Below, piece after piece: positions 1,274 through 1,468 of a stretch of DNA of 7,929 nt. The notes beneath the pieces are model-generated. The model was not told the DNA's origin. It saw only the letters and a program-made list of their open reading frames with translations, and made no database searches. Location: assembly GCA_946478975.1 (NCBI GenBank), contig CAMLEO010000310.1, positions 1 through 7,929 on the forward strand, given 5' to 3'. Every line of letters begins with the position of its first letter. Within the stretch, counting starts at the first letter, position 1. This DNA is from an uncultured Steroidobacter sp. (GTDB taxonomy: Bacteria; Pseudomonadota; Gammaproteobacteria; Steroidobacterales; Steroidobacteraceae). A program made the translations under genes and the position numbers.

Positions 1274-1302
1274 TTGACACTCCGCTGCCGACGCTTTAGC
1301 GT
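1274..1302 (+). promoter_or_regulatory. Candidate sigma-70 promoter for the riboswitch-aspartate kinase transcript
   Basis: A perfect TTGACA (1274-1279) is followed, after 17 bases, by TAGCGT (1297-1302). TAGCGT keeps the first two and the last base of the -10 consensus. Transcription would then start near 1309, immediately before the aptamer at 1310, which is where a 5' leader riboswitch should begin. The position supports the call more than the weak -10 does. Confidence 0.6.
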
Positions 1303-1309
1303 TCGCACC

Positions 1310-1357
1310 TGCGCCGATTTGAGTTCAGCTTGCGGGCGCGTAAGAAATGCGGCTAAA
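1310..1357 (+). promoter_or_regulatory. SAM-II riboswitch aptamer (S-adenosylmethionine sensor)
   Basis: The stretch matches the SAM-II H-type pseudoknot. In order it shows a 5' P1 arm 1310-1314, the GAUUU block 1316-1320, UUGC 1330-1333, a 3' P1 arm 1336-1340, an A-rich linker with AAAUG 1345-1349, and GCUAAA 1352-1357. P1 pairs are U1310.G1340, G1311-C1339, C1312-G1338, G1313-C1337 and C1314-G1336. The P2 pseudoknot can pair G1328-C1353, C1329-G1352, U1331.G1351, G1332-C1350 and C1333-G1349. Against the crystallised marine metX SAM-II aptamer, recalled from memory, 1330-1357 aligns without gaps with 22 of 28 bases identical, and the first loop is two bases longer. SAM-II RNAs bind S-adenosylmethionine and repress methionine-pathway genes. 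The next gene makes homoserine, which fits. SAM-V shares the same core and is the main alternative. Confidence 0.88.
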
Positions 1358-1384
1358 GCGAAGCACACCTGCTTGAGCTTTGGC
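1352..1384 (+). promoter_or_regulatory. Antiterminator hairpin overlapping the SAM-II aptamer
   Basis: Bases 1352-1359 (GCUAAAGC) can pair with 1377-1384 (GCUUUGGC) as eight continuous pairs, one of them U.G. Inside, 1361-1365 (AAGCA) pairs with 1370-1374 (UGCUU) around the loop 1366-1369. The outer strand is the aptamer's own P2 and ligand-site strand. The inner 3' strand takes bases 1370-1374 needed by the terminator stem. The structure therefore excludes both the ligand-bound aptamer and the terminator, as expected of the ligand-free, gene-on state. This is inferred from pairing only. Confidence 0.7.
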
Positions 1385-1398
1385 GAGCGGGTTTTTTT
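1367..1398 (+). terminator. Intrinsic terminator in the riboswitch expression platform
   Basis: Arms 1367-1375 and 1384-1392 form nine continuous pairs (two of them G.U) around the 8-base loop 1376-1383. The stem is followed by an unbroken T run; the whole run is 1392-1398. It starts 10 bases after the SAM-II aptamer and ends 70 bases before the start codon, so it is a leader attenuator and not the end of an upstream gene on this strand. SAM binding, by holding 1352-1357, should block the antiterminator and let this hairpin form. Confidence 0.75.
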
Positions 1399-1411
1399 AT
1401 GCCCGCTTGCC
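1382..1411 (+). other. Alternative hairpin with a T-rich loop across the terminator
   Basis: Bases 1382-1391 can pair with 1402-1411 as ten continuous pairs (one G.T), with the T run 1392-1398 in the loop. It competes with the terminator for the 3' arm, but it would be transcribed only after the T run. It cannot prevent termination in time and more likely forms in read-through RNA. The rest of the leader, 1412-1458, shows no further structure or gene that I can support. Confidence 0.4.
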
Positions 1412-1468
1412 GACCGCATTCCCCGCCGGCTCTCGTCGACGCGTCTACGTGTCCATGCGGAGAGTGGC

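Follow-up and report, generated by a model that had tools for sequence, protein, structure and literature searches.

The leader at positions 1274-1468 of the window, by which we mean the whole 7,929-nucleotide stretch of DNA from an uncultured Steroidobacter sp. that was analysed here, is identified as a SAM-II riboswitch with an intrinsic terminator by all of the sequence and structural tests applied except the Rfam cut-off, and its ligand binding and switching are predicted. It lies ahead of a gene for an aspartate kinase/homoserine dehydrogenase fusion (AK-HSD) that is devoid of ACT domains, and very probably acts as a SAM-II switch that turns transcription off in response to SAM. The basis for an OFF switch consists of the sequence of the leader, its conservation, the covariation of its P1 stem, the mutual exclusiveness on paper of two pairings, and the identity of the gene. 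The features of the leader are summarized in Table 1.

Table 1. Features of the SAM-II leader and of the gene that follows it, in window coordinates.
Feature	Position	Strand	Basis or remark
Candidate sigma-70-type promoter	TTGACA 1274-1279, 17 nt, TAGCGT 1297-1302	+	by eye; boxes recur in L001-L005
SAM-II aptamer	1307-1368 (R1 model span)	+	RF00521, 30.2 bits at 1301-1373; R1, 79 bits (not independent, the window being 1 of 11 training rows)
P1	1310-1315 with 1335-1340	+	six pairs, outermost U-G
GAUUU	1316-1320	+	sequence; directly after P1 5' strand
P2 pseudoknot	1328-1333 (GCUUGC) with 1352-1353, 1355-1356, 1358-1359	+	six pairs possible
UUGC	1330-1333	+	sequence
AAAUG	1345-1349	+	sequence
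GCUAAA	1352-1357	+	sequence
Predicted antiterminator	GCUAAAGC 1352-1359 with GCUUUGGC 1377-1384; AAGC 1361-1364 with GCUU 1371-1374	+	pairing, folding
Intrinsic terminator	1367-1398; stem 1367-1375/1384-1392, T run 1392-1398	+	consensus scan, conservation, folding
Shine-Dalgarno GGAGAG	1459-1464	+	by eye in sequence
AK-HSD, 581 aa, ACT-less	GTG 1469 to stop 3214	+	Pfam, NCBIfam

The aptamer and its conservation in related leaders

Promoter-like boxes open the leader and are followed by a complete SAM-II aptamer and then by an intrinsic terminator; after a spacer come the Shine-Dalgarno sequence and the GTG start codon. An earlier note on this DNA had claimed a full SAM-II signature, and each of the elements that it named is present; its P1 arms (1310-1314/1336-1340) are correctly located, and the stem extends over six pairs rather than the five proposed. 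The covariance-model searches for SAM-II and SAM-V that it had suggested were carried out with cmscan, in which the top match in the window among 4227 Rfam families is to RF00521 (positions 1-79 of the 79 in the model), with E-values of 8.8e-4 over the whole window and 3.4e-5 over 301 nt. The score of 30.2 bits is below the RF00521 gathering cut-off of 36 bits, a curatorial threshold and not a biological feature; no Rfam family reaches its gathering score in the window and hence the default annotation is empty. No SAM-V match is among those listed for either the 301 nt or the whole window, other SAM riboswitch classes were dropped because no match to them is listed in the window, and an anti-hemB match of 15.2 bits was dropped against a cut-off of 49.5. 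In 10 related genomes RF00521 is above its cut-off in none, yet it matches at E <= 1e-3 in 8. A single copy of the spaced motif GATTT-TTGC-GCTAAA is present in the window, and none of 200 dinucleotide shuffles contains it. The features of SAM-II membership found in the window comprise P1 with GAUUU, the P2 pseudoknot, the conserved boxes and a position in the leader of a methionine/SAM gene.

The boxes, the aptamer, the terminator stem and the T run are common to five records (L001-L005, viz. Steroidobacter agaridevorans, S. gossypii, a Steroidobacter MAG, Peristeroidobacter soli and P. agariperforans). An aptamer and a terminator, with different loops and more varied boxes, are also present in four MAG loci (L006 and L008 from Gammaproteobacteria, L007 from Proteobacteria and L010 from Steroidobacteraceae), and beyond the T run the conservation of the leader fades. 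The earlier note had mentioned a candidate promoter, whose boxes were read here by eye, and a transcription start is expected at about 1308-1310; the automatic scan of the window returned no promoter, and the -10 box is weak. The terminator that had been placed directly after the aptamer is present and conserved in the relatives; it is one of two found by the consensus scan, where 1.2 are expected by chance in the region, and its weight derives from this conservation. The distance from GCUAAA to the GTG start is 111 nt, as previously stated, and masking of the ribosome-binding site was rejected for the window because the Shine-Dalgarno sequence lies about 100 nt below the aptamer. The AK-HSD reading frame is open through the entire leader (1256-1468), probably a coincidence of GC-rich sequence. 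Elsewhere in the window, positions 2-911 hold a fragment of a transketolase pyrimidine domain in frame 2 and then, from about 240, another long frame in frame 3, a change that may reflect a gene remnant, a frameshift or an assembly join.

Eleven leaders, that of the window among them, were used to build the aptamer model (R1), and no covariation was found on these training rows. In a larger set of 111 aptamers (107 distinct, from 100 loci out of 257), changes on both sides are seen at 5 of the 6 pairs of P1 among the distinct sequences. P1 and P2 taken together contain 63 cells with double changes, P1 accounting for 62, whereas shuffles give 24.2 and none of 500 shuffles is as high; the shuffles ignore kinship, and related sequences may beat them without structure. 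Slid-structure controls gave at most 12 such cells. In P2, 92.6% of cells are paired, three of the six pairs are invariant and a double change is seen at only one, so that this nearly invariant helix is hardly tested by covariation. R1 matches (E <= 1e-3) lie upstream of AK-HSD genes, or head runs of genes that end in one, in 20 of 80 related loci as well as in the window; of these 20 loci, 10 were, like the window, training rows, one (L069) has the kinase part only and one (L025) scores 26.1 bits; a match of 15.5 bits at L037 was dropped because the motif is absent there. The covariance models, the conservation and the covariation of P1 bear out the SAM-II identity that had been proposed, and they support the terminator as its expression platform.

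Terminator, antiterminator and other readings of the leader

The segment GCUAAAGC comprises the eight nucleotides from GCUAAA on and constitutes the 3' strand of P2, and its complement GCUUUGGC consists of the terminator loop together with the first base of the terminator 3' arm. In the window and in L001-L006, all eight positions of the pairing between them form standard or G-U pairs. Among the 113 leaders that were classified (see below), the segment at the position of GCUAAAGC has an ungapped 8-of-8 partner (G-U allowed) within the next 100 nt in 47, where 4.2 are expected, and a partner of at least 7 of 8 in 88, where 45.0 are expected, 7-of-8 partners being common by chance. A U-tract hairpin (threshold -8 kcal/mol or better) is present in 87 of the 113; partners of at least 7 of 8 and of 8 of 8 are found in 76 and 41 of these leaders, and in 12 and 6 of the 26 leaders that lack such a hairpin. 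In L007, L008, L010 and L094 a terminator is present but the complement extends to only 6 of 8.

Sixteen leaders chosen from the 113 were folded. When the terminator 3' arm is left out, the antiterminator that uses GCUAAAGC is the minimum free energy structure in 13 of the 16, including the window, and L007, L008 and L010 pair differently. With P1 enforced and the strands of P2 held, the terminator forms in all 16, and with GCUAAAGC alone held it appears in 10, the window not among them. The minimum free energy structure of the full, unconstrained window leader is neither state, as the 3' arm of the terminator pairs with the P1 region instead. A hairpin with a T run that is exclusive with an aptamer-linked antiterminator is found in the window on paper only, and the exact terminator-antiterminator pattern was found in 10 of 257 loci, all from the genomes of L001, L003 or L004, this pattern needing 4 nt where the window has 3 and hence being of little informative value. 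These folding results fit, short of proof, a kinetic OFF switch.

In such a switch, RNA polymerase would start near 1308 and transcribe the aptamer. When SAM is plentiful, it would be bound, P1 and P2 would form and P2 would occupy GCUAAAGC; with this segment tied up, the terminator would be expected to fold and transcription in the cell to stop before the gene. When SAM is scarce, GCUAAAGC would pair with the terminator loop and AAGC with the terminator 5' arm (1371-1384 in all), no terminator would form, and the ACT-less AK-HSD would be made and would feed homoserine to methionine.

The alternative that survives best, to which we assign a small probability, is that a real SAM-II aptamer is followed by a constitutive terminator (an attenuator that gives rise to a short RNA) and that the effect of SAM is chiefly on RNA stability or somewhere else. 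The terminator below the SAM-II element of Sinorhizobium metA is not predicted to be switched, and stability-type action is reported in part, in the available sections of PMC9373788, and the unconstrained fold of the window favours neither state cleanly. Against this reading, an 8-of-8 complement to the 3' segment of the aptamer is retained in 47 of 113 leaders, where 4.2 would be expected, and 41 of these leaders belong to the 87 that have a terminator.

The presumed SAM contacts (viz. UUU of GAUUU, UU of UUGC, and U, A, A and A of GCUAAA), whose letters were assigned by motif mapping from the contacts described for SAM-V, are kept in 108-111 of 111 aligned aptamers and in the window, where the aptamer is predicted to bind SAM. 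This retention, together with the statement that SAM-V binds as SAM-II does, makes it quite improbable that the aptamer is degenerate or has been re-specialised for another ligand, such as SAH, although the RF00521 score below the cut-off, and a ligand predicted from sequence alone, would be compatible with that reading.

It is very improbable that the functional RNA is instead an sRNA of the Bp2_287 family (RF02424) on the other strand. This family matches the window at 1446-1275 on the minus strand with 27.6 bits in cmscan, but its cut-off is 70 bits, the promoter and terminator of the window read on the plus strand, and an R1 match is present on the opposite strand in all 30 loci taken from the 43 weak RF02424 matches listed (three of these being partial). 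In our sample of the class, RF02424 is over its cut-off in 0 of 369 genomes and has weak matches in 42. In reverse complement, the RF02424 consensus is GCGUC-GAUUUGA-CAGCUUGC-GACGC, followed by an insert and then by GAAAC, GCUAAAGCGAAGG and a hairpin with a T run; this antisense strand carries a SAM-II signature with a compensated P1. The RF02424 family appears to be a terminator-bearing SAM-II riboswitch read on its antisense strand, and a trans-acting sRNA on the minus strand was rejected on account of the opposite-strand R1 matches and this antisense signature. According to the portions of PMC3521395 available, Cand287 is located upstream of methionine genes and a cis-acting element was already suggested. 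The corresponding portions of PMC4239095 describe an orphan metXZ element of Betaproteobacteria that has a pseudoknot and a terminator before metX/metZ, and from this text description, the sole basis of the comparison, we infer its identity with SAM-II. RF02424 and this published element are probably the same riboswitch, and RF02424 differs from the window in its insert between P1 and the AAA segment. The SAM-II elements before metZ at L151 and L153 (from 1501) and L162 (from 1538) likewise carry an additional hairpin-like sequence at this place.

The reading of the leader as chance or coding sequence, in which the AK-HSD frame that is open from 1256 (652 codons) makes the stretch the start of a longer protein, is hardly credible, since nucleotide-level conservation, the T run and covariation argue against coding, the protein family aligns from the VVLKFGSSVL region on, and open-frame lengths vary from 590 to 654 among relatives.

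The AK-HSD enzyme and the distribution of SAM-II leaders

The protein encoded after the leader contains the AA_kinase, NAD_binding_3 and Homoserine_dh domains in a Pfam scan, and NCBIfam matches were also obtained, in agreement with the gene identity given in the earlier note; the protein is predicted to have both enzyme activities. No ACT family is matched in the window protein by the Pfam scan, and the ACT domains that lie between kinase and dehydrogenase in the ThrA type are absent from it. The motifs KFG, VVSA, GRGGSD and DVDGVY are present in its kinase part and GLGTVG, NGTCN and GLDAARK in its dehydrogenase part, where we take them to serve these respective functions. Most of the full-length relatives align over about 1.6 to 1.75 kb, which leaves no space for ACT domains, and the named ones among the 120 best protein matches are mostly from Steroidobacter. 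At L032, L041, L042 and L058 the sequence LNFGHSVL replaces the LKFGSSVL of the window, and with the loss of this lysine the kinase may be inactive.

All 7 related genomes searched have a second homoserine dehydrogenase, whose open frame spans 842-884 codons, and one of them (G002) has a third, weaker match. In the only one of these longer paralogues that was scanned (L225), ACT_9 is matched by Pfam in two stretches, and the neighbouring frame reads by eye like a homoserine kinase. The SAM-controlled AK-HSD looks like a methionine-dedicated isozyme. In Escherichia coli one such fusion, ThrA, serves threonine and another, MetL, serves methionine under the control of MetJ; in comparison with these, the window has an RNA switch in place of MetJ and an enzyme that is ACT-less.

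In a sample of 60 genomes of the family, R1 matches are present in 11 (one weak, at 28.5 bits) and strong AK-HSD protein matches in 8. Five of the latter are intact fusions (G001, G006, G007, G008 and G035) and all five have the aptamer directly upstream, G035 alone being new, as the others were already known from training loci. The aptamer precedes a dehydrogenase without a kinase part in G032, and no R1 match is found in G033, where AK-HSD is broken at contig ends, or in G050, which has the kinase part only. In the larger sample of the class (as defined by GTDB, and searched with the stricter filters of Infernal), R1 matches at E <= 1e-3 are found in 183 of 369 genomes, and RF00521 matches are found at that threshold in 118 and over the cut-off in 30. 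It looks as if gammaproteobacterial SAM-II is under-annotated and commoner than Rfam lists.

The 113 leaders consist of 10 found via AK-HSD, including that of the window, and 103 others, viz. R1 matches from the family and class samples (the best and a hand-picked spread rather than all 183 genomes), 4 RF00521 loci and 3 RF02424 loci. A methionine/SAM gene lies downstream of 86 of the 103, the names of downstream genes having been assigned by eye and by BLAST to one representative each, with a Pfam check (Cys_Met_Meta_PP) for MetZ only. The commonest is metZ (66), followed by metK (10), metF (4) and AK-HSD-like genes (3, viz. the full fusion in L096, the dehydrogenase only in L094 and the kinase only in L174), and the rest are metN (1), metE (1), homocysteine-methyltransferase-like (1), LysR (1), MoxR-like (2) and unclassified (14). 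The metK-like (SAM synthetase) leaders are L171, L183, L184, L188, L192, L196, L199, L204, L207 and L222. Eleven of the 17 leaders without a methionine gene sit in tandem arrays. Tandem SAM-II elements are seen at L163-L167 (five pairs in one genome), L169, L170, L117, L214, L215 and L138, where an aptamer and a terminator are followed by a second, lower-scoring aptamer and then by genes not recognised as methionine genes, including MoxR-like genes (by eye) in L117 and L214.

Other arrangements were observed around AK-HSD and its relatives. A SAM-II aptamer lies upstream of single-domain relatives of the fusion in L069 and L174 (kinase part) and in L094 (dehydrogenase part). In L045, L048, L025 and L012, the aptamer is followed, by eye, by metX and/or a PLP enzyme of Cys/Met metabolism and then by AK-HSD, the R1 scores of the last two being 26.1 bits and 18.4 bits (E 0.01), respectively. 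A SAM-I riboswitch is present in 10 of the 40 loci scanned with Rfam, on the same strand and 2.3-2.4 kb upstream of AK-HSD in L022, L027, L038, L040 and L044, and on the opposite strand in L033, L035, L050, L052 and L053. The SAM-I elements of the first five and the SAM-II elements of L045 and L048 lie at a similar distance upstream of AK-HSD, which may reflect replacement of one riboswitch class by the other. In four Hellea MAG loci (L032, L041, L042 and L058) the aptamer adjoins the Shine-Dalgarno sequence and start codon of AK-HSD, an arrangement that looks like translational control.

Relation to known SAM-II systems and significance

The SAM-II class, its terminator platform and its hom targets are already known, and what is unusual here is AK-HSD as the controlled enzyme. 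We take PMC2258182 and PMC4239095 to be Barrick and Breaker (2007) and Leyn (2014), respectively. In the excerpts of these and other papers that were available, many SAM-II members have intrinsic terminators and are likely genetic OFF switches (PMC1273637, Corbino 2005, a figure legend of which lists Coxiella and Bordetella), in alpha- and betaproteobacteria the commonest association of SAM-II appears to be with terminators (PMC2258182), and terminators are its commonest platform (PMC6061858). The earlier note had presented both a termination platform and an early-pathway target as unusual, and neither framing can be retained, since terminators are the majority SAM-II platform in print (PMC1273637, PMC2258182) and hom targets have been reported in Hyphomonadaceae, where SAM_alpha lies ahead of hom-metXC (PMC4239095). 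Within the genome set of that paper, its excerpts place SAM_alpha only in Rhizobiales and Rhodobacterales.

A literature search that covered few subscription journals found no paper on Steroidobacter and a riboswitch together or on metXZ with a riboswitch in betaproteobacteria, and for metXZ with an RNA element, as for SAM-II or SAM_alpha with Gammaproteobacteria, it found PMC4239095 alone; the available part of PMC12452182 contains nothing on SAM-II before hom. The window shares its aptamer, terminator platform and predicted OFF logic with the metZ element of S. meliloti, studied in vivo together with that of metA (PMC9373788), and with the original SAM-II set (PMC1273637), as these are described in the excerpts, and it differs from them in its AK-HSD target, in having Steroidobacter as its closest named relatives and in scoring below the Rfam cut-off. 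With the SAM_alpha elements of Hyphomonadaceae (PMC4239095, in part) it shares a SAM-II position before a homoserine dehydrogenase gene, but those elements are alphaproteobacterial and head an operon that also contains metX and metC, whereas no methionine gene follows within the window. SAM-V has the same pseudoknot fold and SAM site, according to the excerpt of PMC6061858, but it is translational and no match to it is listed in the window.

On balance we lean, without great confidence, towards a broader reading of these results. It holds that RNA-level feedback by SAM has replaced allosteric feedback on a methionine-dedicated, ACT-less AK-HSD found across several phyla, and that the leader is a member of a large SAM-II clade of Gammaproteobacteria (found ahead of metZ, metK, metF and AK-HSD, and related to the strand-flipped RF02424 and to the orphan metXZ element of Betaproteobacteria). 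In many of these bacteria the clade would be a main sensor of SAM, and the Rfam cut-off would have missed most of it. In practical terms, R1 finds the element in 183 of 369 genomes of the one class sample, against 30 with RF00521 over its cut-off. RF02424 and the orphan metXZ element being probably the same riboswitch, the question of the orphan's ligand becomes directly testable. If the broader reading is true, the supply of homoserine for methionine would be set by SAM at the level of RNA, through an enzyme without an allosteric sensor, and a longer, sensor-bearing enzyme (with ACT in the one case scanned) would stand alongside the SAM-controlled AK-HSD.
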